A DNA stretch of 64,000 nucleotides from Mycobacterium parmense. Lineage in GTDB: Bacteria > Actinomycetota > Actinomycetes > Mycobacteriales > Mycobacteriaceae. The position numbers were made by a program, and so were the translations under genes. This document shows, piece by piece, positions 14,346 to 20,806 of this stretch. Within the stretch, counting starts at the first letter, position 1. Each line of letters opens with the position of its first letter. The stretch spans positions 868,001-932,000 of the forward strand of contig NZ_AP022614.1 of the NCBI RefSeq assembly GCF_010730575.1. Direction: 5' to 3'. The notes below the pieces were generated by a model. The model did no database searches, was not told the origin of the DNA, and saw nothing but the letters and a program-made list of their open reading frames with translations.

Positions 14346-15382
14346 GATGTGCACCTCGCGAAATTGGCAATGTCGCAAGCGGTATCGCGGCTGATGTCGG
14401 GACAGATGACGGGCAGGATCTCGGTGCCATGGACGGTGCCCATGATCTGGCGGCAGCGCGCGGACACGCCGCTGTTCAGTAACAGTCGATAGAAGGCAAT
14501 CCCCTCGTCGCGCAGAGGATCGCACTCGTTGACGCTGATCACCACCGGAGGGAGGCCCCTGACATCGTCGGACTTCGCCATGCCGGGCCAGGCGAGCGCA
14601 TTGCGGGCCCTGAACGCATCGATGCCGTACGCCATGGTGCTGCGGTTTTCCTGCACGAAGATGAAGATCCCCTCGTTCTCGACCGATGAGGGATTCTGCG
14701 GCAGGGGCCACTCCCCGGCGATGAAGGGGCACATCGCGTACAGACCTTGGATCAGACTGTGGTCCCCGTCCCGCTTCAGTTTCATTCCGAGCGCGAGAGT
14801 CAAGTTGCCGCCGCCACTTTCGCCGGCGACGACGATCCGCTGAGGATCGATGCCGAGCGAGCCGGCGCGGGCGTGGACCCACTTGAGGCCTGAGACGCAG
14901 TCGTTCAAGCCGGCGGGAAAGGGAGCTACCTCCGGCGCGGAGGAGGGGTGCACCGAGTTGCGGAAGTCGATCATGGCCACCGCGACGCCGCGGGCGGCGA
15001 TCATGCGGCCCCAGGCCTTGTAGTTGCCGAGGAAGCAGGAGCTGAACTGCATGCGGCCGCCGTGAATGTAGTAGACGCATGGCACGGTCTCGGCGTTGTC
15101 CGGCCGGATGTATTGGATCTTGATGGTGTTCCCGTCGGGCGAAGAGGTGAATGTCTCGGTGCGGACGGTCAGGCCGGCCGACGGCGCGACCTCCTCGCTG
15201 TCCATGGCGTTGAACAGGGCGTTCACGCGGTCTTGCGCGGCCAGGGCTGCCGGCGTGTTCTCCTGCGCGAGCAGTTCCTCCCGGCTCGAGACGTTGGGTT
15301 TGGCCGTCCCCAGATCGATGCCCGCGAAGAATGCCTTGATCCGCGGATCGAGGCGGGGGTCGAGGTCGAGCTTTGAAGTCAC
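14342..15382 (-). CDS. HSL-family alpha/beta hydrolase (esterase/lipase)
   Basis: A 346-residue alpha/beta hydrolase of the hormone-sensitive-lipase family. It shows the oxyanion HGG at residues 107-109, the nucleophile serine in GESGGG at residue 189, a probable acid in NECDPLRDEG and the His in GTVHGTE near the C terminus. It should be a cytosolic carboxylesterase for acyl esters. The GTG start at 15382 overlaps the TGA of the kinase gene in GTGA form and has GGGAGGG eight bases upstream. It is followed by the EstB-type gene with an ATGA overlap, so two hydrolases are made together with the kinase and the FAD oxidase. Confidence 0.85.
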   Translation of the reverse strand: MTSKLDLDPRLDPRIKAFFAGIDLGTAKPNVSSREELLAQENTPAALAAQDRVNALFNAMDSEEVAPSAGLTVRTETFTSSPDGNTIKIQYIRPDNAETVPCVYYIHGGRMQFSSCFLGNYKAWGRMIAARGVAVAMIDFRNSVHPSSAPEVAPFPAGLNDCVSGLKWVHARAGSLGIDPQRIVVAGESGGGNLTLALGMKLKRDGDHSLIQGLYAMCPFIAGEWPLPQNPSSVENEGIFIFVQENRSTMAYGIDAFRARNALAWPGMAKSDDVRGLPPVVISVNECDPLRDEGIAFYRLLLNSGVSARCRQIMGTVHGTEILPVICPDISRDTACDIANFARCTS

Positions 15383-16305
15383 GCGACGTTCCCTCCCGGG
15401 CACAGGACCTGCAGCGCCGCCGGCACCGCGGAGATCTCGGCGGGCAGCGAACACGCGAAGTCGCCGTCGGCGTACACGTTGATGCCAGGGCATTCGACGG
15501 CGACGGACGTCGCGCGCGCCGTGCTCACCTCCTCGAGCTTCACGTGCGTGCCCTTGATCACGGTGGGAAACAGGCGGACCAGCTTCACCCGGGAAGCCTC
15601 GTGCACCATGGTGATGTCGAGCAGGCCGTCCGCGCGATCGGCGCCGGGGCAGATCAGCATCCCGCCGCCGTAGCTGCGTGTGTTGCCGAACGCCGCGAGC
15701 GTGATGTCGGCATCGATCTCACGGGTCCCGTCGAGCACCATCCGGAACGGCAACAGCCGCAGCTGCGACAACTCGGCGAGCATCGCGAGGTAATACCGCA
15801 GCCGTCCGTGCGGCCAGCCCATCCGGTTCGCGCGGTCGGTGACCAGGGAATCGAAGCCCGCGGCCGCCACCGTGCCGAACCATTTCTGCCCGCCGGCGCG
15901 GTCGCGGATGCGGCCCAGGTCGATGGTCTCCGTCCAGCCGTCGGCGACGACGTCCGCGGCGGCCTCGGGATCCTTTGTCGCAATGCCTAATTCGCGCGCG
16001 TGGTCGTTGCCGGTTCCGGCCGGGACGATGCCCAGCGGCACATCGGTGCACGCGAGCACCTGCAGCGCGTTGGAGACGACGCCGTCGCCCCCGGTCGCCA
16101 TCACGGCGTCGGCGCCCTTCTCCAGCGCCGCGGCGACCAGGTGTCGCGCGTCCTGCGCGTCGTCGCCGATGATTTCGATGACCTCCACGCCGCGCCGGTG
16201 CAGCCGCGCGATCGCGAGCTGCGCGGCGCCGACGGCGGCGCCGTGCCCGGAGGCGGGGTTGGTGAGCGCGATCACCTTGCCGACCTCGCGCCGCCGCAGA
16301 CTCAT
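15379..16305 (-). CDS. Diacylglycerol kinase-like lipid kinase (Rv2252-like)
   Basis: A 308-residue protein of the DagK/LCB5 family. ALTNPASGHG is the N-terminal glycine motif, TGGDG at residues 71-75 is the ATP-binding core, and PAGTGND at 95-101 completes the catalytic loop. The relative Rv2252 of M. tuberculosis phosphorylates diacylglycerol to phosphatidic acid and has been linked to phosphatidylinositol mannoside synthesis. It sits second in the operon: its ATG overlaps the stop of the FAD oxidase gene and its stop overlaps the GTG of the lipase gene. It is probably a peripheral membrane enzyme on the cytoplasmic face. Confidence 0.88.
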   Translation of the reverse strand: MSLRRREVGKVIALTNPASGHGAAVGAAQLAIARLHRRGVEVIEIIGDDAQDARHLVAAALEKGADAVMATGGDGVVSNALQVLACTDVPLGIVPAGTGNDHARELGIATKDPEAAADVVADGWTETIDLGRIRDRAGGQKWFGTVAAAGFDSLVTDRANRMGWPHGRLRYYLAMLAELSQLRLLPFRMVLDGTREIDADITLAAFGNTRSYGGGMLICPGADRADGLLDITMVHEASRVKLVRLFPTVIKGTHVKLEEVSTARATSVAVECPGINVYADGDFACSLPAEISAVPAALQVLCPGGNVA

Positions 16306-17921
16306 GGAATCAGCTTGCCCGGGTTGAGGATTCCGGCGGGATCCAGCGTCGCCTTGACCGCACGCAGTACCCGCACCCCGAGCTCGCCCACCTCGTCACC
16401 CATCCACGGCCGGTGGTCGGCGCCGACCGCGTGGTGGTGGGTGATGGTCCCGCCGGCCGCCATGATCGCGTCCGAGGCCGCCTTCTTGGCGGCCCGCCAC
16501 TGCTCGATCGGATTGCCGCGCTGACCGGCGACCACGGTGAAGTACAGCGACGCTCCGGTCGGGTAGACGTGCGAGATGTGGCACATCACCAGCGCCGGCG
16601 TGCCCGACGCGGACAACGCATCGGTGAGTGCCTGGGTGACGGCGGCCTTGAGCGCCGCGATGTTGGACCAGTCGGTGGCGGTCTCGAGGGTCTCGCACAG
16701 GGCTCCCGCCGACAGCAGCGAGTCACGCAGGTACGGCGCGCCGAACCGTCCCCGCTCCCAGGCCCGCGCCGGGCCCTCACCCAGCGACGTCGCGCCGTGC
16801 GACGCCAGCAGCGCGCTGGTCTCGGCCTGCCGGCTTTCGACGTGCTCCTTGGTGCCCTCGAACGTGGTGATGGCCAGACAGCCGCCCGTGATCTGCGTCT
16901 TGCCGATCGCCTCGGTGGTGGCCAGGTTGATCCCGGTCTCGACCTCGTCGGAGAGCCGGATCACGGTCGGGCCGGTGGCGTTCTGGGCGACGGCGCGCAG
17001 GGCCGCGGCCCCGGTCTCGAAGTCGGGGAACGACCAGGCCTCGTGGCGCACGGCGTCGGGGGAGCGGTGCACGCGCAGCCGCACCCGGGTGATGACGCCC
17101 AAAGCGCCCTCCGAGCCGATCAGCAACTGGCGCAGGTCGGGTCCCGCCGCCGATTCCGGTGCGCGGCCCAGGTCCAGCACGCCCACCGGGGTGACGACCC
17201 GCAGGCCGCGGACCATGTCGTTGAACCGCCCGTAACCCGCCGAGTCCTGGCCCGACGACCGCGTCGCGGCGAAGCCGCCGATGGTCGCGTACTCGAAGCT
17301 CTGCGGGAAGTGCCCCAGGGAGAAGCCGTGTTCGCCGAGCAGTCGTTCGGCGTCCGGCCCGGTGACGCCGGCCTCGAAGACCGCCTGGCCCGAGATCCGG
17401 TCGAGCGAGATCAGCCGGGCGAGGCGGCGCAGGTCCAGCGACACCACGGCGCCGAACTCGCCGCGGATGGGGTCGAGACCGCCCACGACGCTGGTGCCGC
17501 CCCCGAACGGGACCACGGCGATACGGTGCTCGGAGCAGTACCGCAGGACGGCGGCGACGGCGTCGTCGTCACCGGGCAGCAGCACCGCGTCGGGCGCGTC
17601 CTGCACGCCGGTGTCGCGGCGCCGCAACAGGTCCAGGGTGGACTTGCCGCCGGCGTGCAGCAGCCGGTCGGCGTCCGCGGTGCGGCAGTACGCGGCGCCG
17701 ACGATGTGGGCCAGCGCGTCGGCGTCCGTCGGCGGCAGGGCCGACGGACGCAGCCGGACCTGCCCCGCCTGCAGCTCGGGCTCGCCCGAATCCTCTACGC
17801 CGACAGCCTGTTTCAACAGCGTGCGGATTCCCTCCGAAAGCGGCTTGGCCGCGGCGGGGTCTCCCCACGCGTTCCACTTCATCGGCGGGAGGAGTTCCTC
17901 GGCGGGTGGCACCGGCGTCAT
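16302..17921 (-). CDS. FAD-linked oxidase, alkyldihydroxyacetonephosphate synthase-like (Rv2251-like)
   Basis: A 539-residue protein with a VAO-type FAD-binding domain: VVPFGGGTSVVGGLD (about residues 136-150) and the second FAD segment FEYATIGGFAATRSSGQDSAGYG. The C terminus has HISHVYPTGASLYF and THHHAVGADHRPWM, the His-rich active site typical of alkyl-DHAP synthases. These enzymes swap an acyl for an alkyl chain to form ether lipids; in mycobacteria that activity has not been demonstrated to my knowledge. It heads a four-gene overlapping operon with the lipid kinase, which fits a glycerolipid role. The ATG is 17 bases from the divergent TetR gene. Confidence 0.85.
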   Translation of the reverse strand: MTPVPPAEELLPPMKWNAWGDPAAAKPLSEGIRTLLKQAVGVEDSGEPELQAGQVRLRPSALPPTDADALAHIVGAAYCRTADADRLLHAGGKSTLDLLRRRDTGVQDAPDAVLLPGDDDAVAAVLRYCSEHRIAVVPFGGGTSVVGGLDPIRGEFGAVVSLDLRRLARLISLDRISGQAVFEAGVTGPDAERLLGEHGFSLGHFPQSFEYATIGGFAATRSSGQDSAGYGRFNDMVRGLRVVTPVGVLDLGRAPESAAGPDLRQLLIGSEGALGVITRVRLRVHRSPDAVRHEAWSFPDFETGAAALRAVAQNATGPTVIRLSDEVETGINLATTEAIGKTQITGGCLAITTFEGTKEHVESRQAETSALLASHGATSLGEGPARAWERGRFGAPYLRDSLLSAGALCETLETATDWSNIAALKAAVTQALTDALSASGTPALVMCHISHVYPTGASLYFTVVAGQRGNPIEQWRAAKKAASDAIMAAGGTITHHHAVGADHRPWMGDEVGELGVRVLRAVKATLDPAGILNPGKLIP

Positions 17922-17925
17922 GCGT

Positions 17926-17932
17926 TACAGTA
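17926..17932. promoter_or_regulatory. Overlapping divergent -10 boxes with a possible TetR operator
   Basis: The plus strand reads TACAGT at 17926-17931, seven bases before the TetR ATG. The minus strand reads TACTGT at 17932-17927, five bases before the FAD oxidase ATG. Only 17 bases separate the two start codons, so both promoters share one -10 region and both transcripts would be leaderless. TTACAG (17925-17930) and CTGTCAA (17942-17948) form an imperfect inverted repeat that could be the TetR site. Confidence 0.5.
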
Positions 17933-17938
17933 TTACAC

Positions 17939-18508
17939 ATGCTGTCAATCAGTAACGCCGCGCCGGACCCCGGTGAGCGGATCCTGGCCGCGGCGGCCAG
18001 TTGCGTGGTCGACTTCGGTGTCGACCGGGTGACCCTGGCCGAGATCGCGCGCCGCGCTGGGGTGAGCAGGCCGACGGTGTATCGCCGGTGGGCGGACACG
18101 AAGTCGATCGTGGCGGCGCTGCTGACGCGGCACGTGATGGGCGCGCTGGACAAGGCGCCGCTGGCCGGGGACGACCGCGAATCGCTGGTGCGGCAGATCG
18201 TCACGGTCGCCGACCTGCTGCGCCGCGACAAACTGGTGATGTCCGTGCTGCACTCGGAGTTGGCGCCCATCTACATCACCGAGCGGCTGGGCTCCAGCCA
18301 GCAGATGCTGATCGACGCGCTCGCCGCGCGGATGCGGGTAGCCCAACGCAGCGGCAGCGTGCGCGCCGGCGACCCGCTGCAGATGGCCACCATGGTGTTG
18401 CTGATCGCCCAGTCGACCATCCAGTCGGCCCAGATCGTCGCGTCGATCCTGGACGCCGGCGCTCTGGCCGACGAACTCGCCCACGCCCTGAACGGATACC
18501 TGTCGTGA
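17939..18508 (+). CDS. TetR-family regulator (Rv2250c-like)
   Basis: A 189-residue regulator, the length I recall for Rv2250c. Residues 9-55 form the TetR DNA-binding domain: ILAAAASCVVDFGVDRVTLA and then the helix-turn-helix IARRAGVSRPTVYRRW. The C-terminal ligand domain is not recognisable. It is cotranscribed with glpD (GTGA overlap) and diverges from the FAD oxidase-kinase operon with overlapping -10 boxes, so it probably controls both sides, perhaps in response to a glycerolipid or acyl signal. The ATG at 17939 is preferred because a -10 box ends seven bases upstream; the longer frame from 17906 would run through that promoter. Confidence 0.85.
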   Translation: MLSISNAAPDPGERILAAAASCVVDFGVDRVTLAEIARRAGVSRPTVYRRWADTKSIVAALLTRHVMGALDKAPLAGDDRESLVRQIVTVADLLRRDKLVMSVLHSELAPIYITERLGSSQQMLIDALAARMRVAQRSGSVRAGDPLQMATMVLLIAQSTIQSAQIVASILDAGALADELAHALNGYLS

Positions 18509-20070
18509 CGCCCCTGGGATCGGGAGCCCTCAACGCCGCGCGCCGCGCGGCCGACCTGACCGCGCTCGGCGACGGTGAGCGGCCCGACGTGCTCGTGATC
18601 GGCGGCGGCATCACCGGGGCCGGCATCGCGCTGGACGCCGCGTCGCGCGGGCTGCGGGTGGCGCTCGTCGAGAAACACGATTTGGCGTTCGGCACCAGCC
18701 GGTGGAGCTCCAAGCTGGTGCACGGCGGGCTGCGCTACCTGGCGAGCGGCAACGTCGCGATCGCCAGGCGCAGCGCCATCGAACGCGGGATCCTGATGTC
18801 GCGCAACGCCCCGCACCTCGTGCGCGCGATGCCTCAACTGGTTCCGCTGCTGCCGTCGATGAGCCGCGCCGACCGCGCCCTGGTCCGGGCGGGGTTCCTC
18901 GCCGGCGACGCGTTGCGGGCGCTCGCGGGCACCTCGCCGGCGACCCTACCGCGGTCGCGCCGGGTGGCGGCACAGCGCGTCGTGCAGATGGTCCCCGCCG
19001 TGCGCCGCGACGGCCTGGCCGGCGGGCTGCTGGCCTACGACGGGCAGCTGATCGACGACGCCCGGCTGGTCACCGCCGTCGCACGCACCGCGGCTCAGCA
19101 CGGCGCCCGCATCCTCACCCACGTGGCGGCGGCGGAGGCCACCGGCACGTCGGCGCGGCTGACCGATCGGCGCACGGGGCAGTCGTTCGACGTCTCCGCC
19201 GCGGCGGTGATCAACGCGACCGGGGTGTGGGCCGCCGAGATCGACGGCGGGCTGCGGCTGCGGCCCAGCCGCGGTACCCACCTGGTGTTCGACGCCGGCG
19301 CCTTCGGCAATCCGACTGCGGCGCTGACCATTCCGATCCCCGGCGAGCTCAACCGGTTCGTGTTCGCCATGCCCGAGCAGCTGGGCCGCGTGTATCTGGG
19401 GCTGACCGACGAAGCCGCGCCCGGCCCCATTCCCGACGTCCCCGAGCCGTCGGGCGAGGAGGTCACCTTCCTGCTGGACACCGTCAACACCGCGCTGGGG
19501 ACCGCGCTCAAGGCGGCCGACGTGATCGGCGCCTACGCGGGCCTGCGGCCGCTGATCGACAGCGGGCAGGGCCGCACCGCGGACGTCTCGCGCGAGCACG
19601 CCGTCGTCGAGTCGGCGTCCGGCGTGATCAGCGTGATCGGCGGCAAGCTGACCGAATACCGCTACATGGCCCAGGACGTCCTGGATCGCGCCGTGGCCCT
19701 GCGACACCTGCGCGCCGGTGACTGCCGGACGCGCAACCTGCCGCTGATCGGCGCGCCGTCCAATCCGGGGCCGGCGTCTCCGGTCCACCAGGGGCCGGTC
19801 GCCGGTCTGCCGGCATCGCTGGTGGCGCGTTACGGCGCGGAGGCGCCGCAGGTGTTCGCGACCGCCACCTGCGAGCGCCCCACCGAACCGGTCGCTGAGG
19901 GCATCGACGTGACCCGGGCGGAGTTCGAATACGCGGTGACCCACGAGTGCGCGCTGGACGTCTCCGATATCTTGGATCGGCGGACCCGCATTGGCCTGGT
20001 GCCACGGGACCGCGAGCGGGTTGTTGCCGTGGCCGCGGAGTTCATGGCACGTTTCGGCTTGCCGGGCTGA
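18505..20070 (+). CDS. glpD: Glycerol-3-phosphate dehydrogenase, FAD-dependent
   Basis: A 521-residue GlpD-type enzyme (GlpD1, Rv2249c-like). The N-terminal FAD motif is VLVIGGGITGAGIALDAA at about residue 30, followed by GTSRWSSKLVHGGLRYL, the GlpD signature. The C-terminal part holds the family's cap domain (EFEYAVTHECALDVSDIL). It oxidises sn-glycerol 3-phosphate to dihydroxyacetone phosphate and passes electrons to the quinone pool at the membrane. The GTG start overlaps the TGA of the TetR gene. Its product is the precursor used by an alkyl-DHAP synthase-like enzyme encoded just across the divergent promoter, which makes the grouping metabolically coherent. Confidence 0.9.
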   Translation: MTPLGSGALNAARRAADLTALGDGERPDVLVIGGGITGAGIALDAASRGLRVALVEKHDLAFGTSRWSSKLVHGGLRYLASGNVAIARRSAIERGILMSRNAPHLVRAMPQLVPLLPSMSRADRALVRAGFLAGDALRALAGTSPATLPRSRRVAAQRVVQMVPAVRRDGLAGGLLAYDGQLIDDARLVTAVARTAAQHGARILTHVAAAEATGTSARLTDRRTGQSFDVSAAAVINATGVWAAEIDGGLRLRPSRGTHLVFDAGAFGNPTAALTIPIPGELNRFVFAMPEQLGRVYLGLTDEAAPGPIPDVPEPSGEEVTFLLDTVNTALGTALKAADVIGAYAGLRPLIDSGQGRTADVSREHAVVESASGVISVIGGKLTEYRYMAQDVLDRAVALRHLRAGDCRTRNLPLIGAPSNPGPASPVHQGPVAGLPASLVARYGAEAPQVFATATCERPTEPVAEGIDVTRAEFEYAVTHECALDVSDILDRRTRIGLVPRDRERVVAVAAEFMARFGLPG

Positions 20071-20164: not shown

Positions 20165-20806
20165 ATGACTGCCGACAGCGTTCGAGGTGAACGGGCGGCG
20201 CGCCGGCCAGCGGGCAAAAATCGGGGACGCTTTGATCCCTCTCTTGACGCCGCCATCCTCGAGGCCGCGCTGGAGGGGCTGGGCGAACAGGGCTACGACC
20301 GGATGAGTATGGACGACATCGCGTCGCGTGCGGGTGTTGGCAAGGCCGCGATCTACCGGCGCTGGCCGTCGAAGGCAGCGGTGGTGGCCGATGCGATCGC
20401 GCACTGGCGGCGGGGACACGGACCGGTCGACCCGCCGGATACCGGGAGCCTGCGCGGCGACATCGACGCACTGGTGGACGCGGTGCCGGACTTCGACGAA
20501 GCCGCTCTGAGCACGATCAAGGTGATCATCGGCGCGGCGACGGCGGCAATGCACACTCCCGTCCTCGCGGCGGCGCTGGACGATCTTGTGCTGTGCGTGC
20601 CGCGTCAGATCATCAAGGTGGTCCTCGACCAGGCCGTGGCCCGGGGCGAGATTCCTTCGGGTCACGATTTGACGCTCATACCCGACGCCATCCTGGGCCT
20701 CAACGTCCTGCGAATGATGGCGGGACGACCGATCGATCGCGTCTACGCTCGCCGCGCTCTTGAACAGGTGATGCTTCCGCTCGCGACCCTCAATCGCGTC
20801 GACTAG
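20165..20806 (+). CDS. TetR/AcrR-family regulator
   Basis: A 213-residue regulator with a charged N terminus (RPAGKNRGRFD), a TetR DNA-binding domain at residues 25-75 (DDIASRAGVGKAAIYRRWPS) and a C-terminal domain of the TetR_C type. GAGGA lies eight bases before the ATG at 20165. It is followed by the nitroreductase-like and flavin monooxygenase genes on the same strand. In M. tuberculosis only one unrelated small gene lies between glpD1 and accD6, so this group looks inserted. It most likely represses those two genes, which would fit a xenobiotic-sensing role. The inducer is unknown. Confidence 0.85.
   Translation: MTADSVRGERAARRPAGKNRGRFDPSLDAAILEAALEGLGEQGYDRMSMDDIASRAGVGKAAIYRRWPSKAAVVADAIAHWRRGHGPVDPPDTGSLRGDIDALVDAVPDFDEAALSTIKVIIGAATAAMHTPVLAAALDDLVLCVPRQIIKVVLDQAVARGEIPSGHDLTLIPDAILGLNVLRMMAGRPIDRVYARRALEQVMLPLATLNRVD

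Follow-up and report, generated by a model that had tools for sequence, protein, structure and literature searches.

A conserved 39-bp block holding two divergent start codons, a pseudo-symmetrical -10 element and a probable TetR operator in Mycobacterium parmense

Divergent operons and their start codons

Within the window (the whole 64,000-nucleotide stretch of Mycobacterium parmense DNA analyzed here), two divergent two-gene operons part between positions 17921 and 17939. The leftward operon, on the minus strand, begins with a gene for an FAD-linked oxidase of 539 amino acids (16302 to 17921) that carries the Pfam domains FAD_binding_4 and FAD-oxidase_C. In the PDB, it is matched best by two alkyldihydroxyacetonephosphate synthases, 2uuu (E = 1.4e-92) and 4bby (E = 1.4e-70); by sequence, the closest kin of this putative enzyme is alkyl-dihydroxyacetone phosphate (alkyl-DHAP) synthase. 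It is followed by a diacylglycerol/lipid kinase gene of the YegS/Rv2252/BmrU family (15379 to 16305), whose product matches the NCBIfam diacylglycerol kinase model PRK11914 with an E value of 3e-166 and 552 bits, exceeding the cut-off of 302. The rightward operon, on the plus strand, opens with tetR (17939 to 18508), which encodes a putative repressor of 189 amino acids with a TetR_N domain (PF00440, E = 4.9e-12) at residues 15 to 61; the named relatives of this protein are mostly from Mycobacterium, at identities of up to 87%. Behind it lies a gene for a glpD-like glycerol-3-phosphate dehydrogenase (18505 to 20070, from a probable GTG start), with a Pfam DAO domain (E = 2.5e-48) and a DAO_C domain and a match to NCBIfam PRK12266 (E = 2.3e-74) that, at 251 bits, falls under the cut-off of 360. 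Both operons contain a 4-base translational overlap, GTGA at 18505-18508 between the tetR stop and the probable glpD GTG, and ATGA at 16302-16305 between the oxidase and kinase genes. A second TetR-family gene (TetR_N and TetR_C_11) is found downstream of glpD on the same strand, at 20165-20806.

The two start codons leave an intergenic gap of 17 bases (17922-17938), flanked by CAT at 17919-17921, the ATG of the oxidase gene on the minus strand, and by ATG at 17939-17941, that of tetR on the plus strand; measured from codon to codon, they are 18 bp apart. A candidate -10 element for tetR-glpD, TACAGT with CGT before it, occupies 17926-17931 on the plus strand and fits TANNNT, with the ATG 7 bases on. 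The candidate for the oxidase-kinase operon is TACTGT at 17927-17932 on the minus strand, with the ATG 5 bases on. Together they form TACAGTA/TACTGTA at 17926-17932, a pseudo-symmetrical -10 that reads TANNNT on either strand. A preliminary description of this DNA had given the 17-base gap, the two hexamers and their near-leaderless distances of 7 and 5 bases, all of which the coordinates bear out, but had put the overlap of the hexamers at six bases, where it is five (17927-17931).

Mycobacterial promoters are reported to require TANNNT and no conserved -35 element, and those of M. tuberculosis to have CGN upstream of the -10 (PMC3898074); for leaderless translation in mycobacteria an RTG codon at the mRNA 5' end is reported as both necessary and sufficient (PMC4633059). 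On both strands here, the RTG codon sits where +1 would be expected for a leaderless gene. The base upstream of the oxidase start, read on the coding strand, is C in all 139 distinct loci compared, and a pyrimidine precedes the tetR ATG position in 126 of them; the -1 preference described for M. tuberculosis resembles the bases that precede both starts here (PMC3898074). Scanning 17800-18100 with a sigma-70-type -10/-35 consensus gave no promoter-like site, a blank that is no argument against TANNNT promoters. TTGACA on the minus strand (17948-17943), a conceivable -35 element, was rejected, as it lies just 10 bases from TACTGT.

Conservation of the block within and beyond the genus

Column counts over the 139 distinct loci delimit a conserved block at 17919-17957, within which lie the two start codons, the common -10 and the probable operator described below. 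In most of its columns, the commonest base reaches 94-100%, with looser columns at 17938 (62%), 17942 (65%), 17949-17951 (81-89%) and 17956 (73%); outside the block, conservation drops to 40-88% at 17911-17918 and to 37-65% at 17958-17970. The loci were anchored on TTACAGTAT, a 9-mer that occurs exactly once in 170 of 172 loci (exceptions L168 and L171), so columns 17925-17933 are invariant by construction. The flank beyond the inverted repeat, 17922-17924, stands at 94-100%.

The bare pattern CAY-N4-TANNNTA-N6-RTG occurs at one place in the 5.95-Mb genome, at this locus, against six for the backwards control, and is therefore not rarer than chance. Conservation of the block is far above chance: GTTACAGTATTAC is present in 223 of 248 genus genomes, compared to one of 248 for the reversed control, and the 31-bp motif TTACAGTATTACANNTGNTGTCANNNNGTAA is found with up to three mismatches in 237 of the 248, with none for its control. 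Conservation of the shared core among close relatives, on which the preliminary description had staked its reading, is thus what these genomes show. The 39-bp block is kept across mycobacteria and is recognizable in other genera of the family. Two loci look degraded: that of M. leprae TN (L171), where the exact core is absent and a diverged version alone is present, and that of M. tilburgii (L173), where the operator is kept and the oxidase frame is interrupted by stops.

The oxidase start codon is equally fixed in place, being ATG in 138 of the 139 distinct loci and GTG in the remaining one. From this codon, the frame is open and leads to a conserved W..WG motif in 137 of the 139 (exceptions L170 and L173), and the N-terminus between the two takes ten different lengths. 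Because a fixed, in-frame codon persists despite this variation in length, the comparison supports 17921 as the likely genuine start of the oxidase. The single change from ATG to GTG is compatible with leaderless translation, since a 5' RTG is reported to suffice (PMC4633059).

Beyond the genus, a looser operator-related pattern was found in 150 of 301 family genomes, belonging to 17 of 31 genera, with one genome matched by the control. Twenty out-of-genus loci were sampled, and 19 of these carry the operator, whole or as its left arm. In 14 of the 20, the fixed ATG opens a frame for an oxidase homologue, with none found in that frame at L202, L210, L211, L214, L216 and L218. Among the 19 loci with the operator, the plus-strand TANNNT is retained in every one, the codon at the oxidase position is ATG in 18, and bases 17927 and 17931, which serve both strands as -11 A and -7 T, are kept throughout. 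The first T of the minus-strand -10 (the complement of 17932) is retained in five and changed in 14; it is fixed by construction in the 139 loci and, among the genus genomes listed, is changed in G028, G196 and G200. With that T kept in so few loci of other genera, the fully symmetrical heptamer appears to be mainly a mycobacterial trait. A locus labeled Rhodococcus sp. HNM0569 (L166) has a Mycobacterium-like arrangement, with an oxidase protein 74% identical over 484 residues, and g24 loci L181, L182, L189 and L198 resemble it in arrangement.

A probable operator centered on the tetR start codon

The probable TetR operator is the inverted repeat TTACNGNNTKACA-N5-TGTMANNCNGTAA (17925-17955), whose axis at 17940 is the middle base of the tetR start codon. 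A TTACAG...CTGTCAA repeat had been proposed earlier as a TetR site lying over both promoters; the candidate operator does cover both, and the repeat itself extends further than was then described. It overlaps the putative promoter of tetR itself, with the left arm lying over the shared -10. Here, 9 of 13 arm positions pair, a degree of pairing matched by 128 of 5,000 shuffles, and as a palindrome in a single sequence it is only modest; in genus g23, 11 of the 13 positions pair. The operator consensus, with up to three mismatches allowed, is found at one place in the entire genome, so the regulator looks local. Site and tetR are concordant in 246 of 248 genomes (236 with both and 10 with neither), which is weak evidence because both lie at one locus.

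The right arm falls within tetR codons and is constrained as DNA, synonymous positions included. Codon 3 of tetR is TCA in 138 of the 139 loci, whereas TCA is used for one of the 84 serines encoded by the four cluster genes. Codon 5 is AGT in 117 loci, CGT in 19, GGT in two and AAT in one, so that its third base is T in all 139. For comparison, the third base is fully fixed in 3 of 85 other well-conserved four- or six-fold codons; this comparison used distinct loci only (33 of the 59 loci with the HTH at the same offset). Two g23 loci, L212 and L213, have their first in-frame tetR start 96 and 68 nt, respectively, past the left end of the operator; the right arm there falls outside the gene and is nonetheless conserved. 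The tetR ATG is also found 3 nt later in some loci (e.g., L058 and L064), with the spacing of the arms unchanged.

Control of the two operons

We propose that the block is probably a compact bidirectional leaderless promoter that is repressed by TetR in both directions at once. From the observed geometry and conservation, the DNA-level constraint in tetR, the fixed start codons and the single genomic site, we infer the following course of events in this species. RNA polymerase would load in either orientation on the one shared -10 (TACAGTA/TACTGTA), and transcription would begin at the A of either ATG or within about a base of it; the two leaderless mRNAs would then start 18 bp apart. TetR would bind the inverted repeat centered on its own start codon, and because the left arm lies over the shared -10, binding would block polymerase both ways; an operator that covers the shared core thus predicts joint repression. 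A ligand, perhaps a glycerolipid or acyl intermediate, could release TetR, whereupon the oxidase-lipid kinase and tetR-glpD operons would be switched on jointly. In E. coli, bidirectional promoters have transcription start sites about 10 to 23 bp apart, with 18 bp the commonest spacing, and at acrA/acrR both RNAs are under repression by the TetR-family autorepressor AcrR (PMC12825309). A more far-reaching reading sees a 39-bp minimal divergon, with two leaderless starts, a symmetrical -10 and a TetR operator in the same DNA, in which one binding event would set both operons and couple the supply and use of DHAP in ether/glycerolipid synthesis; for this, we hold the chances to be evenly balanced.

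Published expression data offer supportive but thin evidence for joint control. In BCG overexpressing InbR, log2 changes of +2.28 for glpD1, +2.11 for Rv2250c, +2.16 for Rv2251 and +2.20 for Rv2252 are given in the single published table found to include all four (PMC4564863, Table 2). Both arms therefore rose together in BCG, more than 4-fold, where orthologues are taken by gene name and order. InbR is another TetR protein, and the same table gives no InbR peak for the four-gene cluster, includes accD6 and Rv2248 beside the cluster among the genes that rise and leaves the INH column empty for all four genes (PMC4564863, Table 2). Under NO, Rv2250c and the flavoprotein gene Rv2250A are both up, and at low pH Rv2250c alone is visible (PMC10178195, Table 1). 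Several further papers name just one arm in their main text.

The preliminary description had read the overlapping promoters as a possible built-in switch that chooses either glycerol-3-phosphate oxidation or glycerolipid synthesis, on the reasoning that a single DNA copy could not be transcribed from both starts at once and that expression of one operon would shut off the other. The -10 elements do overlap, and at E. coli bidirectional promoters strong activation one way can repress the other (PMC12825309). However, such a switch would require polymerases to compete strongly, and at all five E. coli promoters tested basal transcription was too low for any competition (PMC12825309); no activator site was found in the consensus scan of 17800-18100, the one scan that was made; an operator placed over the shared core predicts repression of both sides together; and the joint rise of the two arms in BCG argues against their opposition (PMC4564863). 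Since the oxidase is nearest to alkyl-DHAP synthase, both arms would involve DHAP and would not have to work in opposition. We therefore regard an orientation switch as distinctly unlikely and do not favor that part of the earlier reading.

It is also rather unlikely that the block is only a TetR site whose -10 is used at most by tetR, with the oxidase operon starting elsewhere or from a weaker element. The operator by itself accounts for constraint to either side of that codon in tetR, and outside the genus the first T of the minus-strand hexamer is lost in 14 of 19 loci where the plus-strand TANNNT is kept in all. On the other hand, the oxidase start keeps a constant distance, as ATG or GTG, in all 139 genus loci and is ATG in 18 of the 19 beyond the genus, the -11 A and -7 T common to both strands survive in every one of those 19, and the flank at 17922-17924, outside the repeat, is well conserved. 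That TetR acts as an activator, or that the site belongs to another regulator, is highly improbable. Binding of TetR to the site is a prediction from sequence, which leaves some room for this; on the other side, a protein bound to this site would lie on the -10 and obstruct polymerase, the site is located at the regulator's own start, and divergent TetR genes within 200 bp of a neighbor generally regulate that neighbor (PMC4482099). The concordance of site and gene across genomes points the same way, weakly, given the single locus.

Three known systems come closest to the arrangement proposed here. PacrA/acrR of E. coli, from the work on bidirectional promoters by Warman, Grainger and colleagues, likewise has one -10 on both strands and likewise lies between divergent protein genes, one of them of the TetR family; the spacing of its start sites would be shared, at 18 bp, if both genes here are leaderless (PMC12825309). 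In contrast to PacrA/acrR, both mRNAs here would be leaderless, there is no -35 match, and the axis of the operator is the start codon of the regulator. In M. tuberculosis and BCG, Rv2249c-Rv2252 has the same kinds of genes in the same order and orientation: glpD1, the TetR gene Rv2250c, the flavoprotein gene Rv2251 and the diacylglycerol kinase gene Rv2252 (PMC4564863, Table 2). Gene names and order make these the probable orthologues. For Rv2250c, an upstream palindromic motif had already been listed in 2015 (E = 2.4e-11); it fell short of the threshold set by its authors, who placed it in a less significant class (PMC4482099). The pair prpD (Rv1130)/Rv1129c also sets a divergent metabolic gene against a regulator gene, each of them mapped as leaderless and upregulated in starvation (PMC3898074), but the regulator Rv1129c is PrpR and not, as here, a TetR protein (PMC6906086). 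Closely juxtaposed divergent promoters have been called common in M. tuberculosis (PMC3898074).

Bidirectional promoters and leaderless genes are thus already known as kinds. New, so far as the literature found shows, is an anatomy in which both starts, a shared -10 and an operator lie in one block conserved across the genus; in that literature, no title describes a leaderless bidirectional promoter in mycobacteria, and no title or abstract carries a tag of these genes. The bidirectional promoters dissected in E. coli serve leadered genes and have -35 elements. If our reading is right, this would be the first leaderless bidirectional promoter to be described as such, as far as the literature found allows us to say. 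The locus would be an extremely short natural case, with promoter, both start codons and operator within a fragment of about 40 bp, and would provide an operator and a target set for a conserved, uncharacterized mycobacterial TetR protein (Rv2250c-like). It predicts joint, not opposed, control of glycerol-3-phosphate oxidation and an operon that resembles one for lipid synthesis.

The divergent TANNNTA/RTG pattern was searched for in the same genome at three spacings in all, and over these a class of such promoters is not shown. Besides the pattern at this locus, CAY-N5-TANNNTA-N5-RTG occurs at one place (L222), where no ORF of at least 80 amino acids starts on either side, with eight places for its control. 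CAY-N5-TANNNTA-N6-RTG also occurs at one place (L223), again with eight for the control, and two ORFs start there. Its plus-strand ORF is without a Pfam match and runs over a DUF2470 gene on the opposite strand, and L223 was therefore not counted as a divergent pair. At positions 1501-1524 of L223, TANNNTA lies at leaderless distance from the GTG that starts a gene for a LytR-CpsA-Psr protein, and the ORF opposite is probably not a gene.
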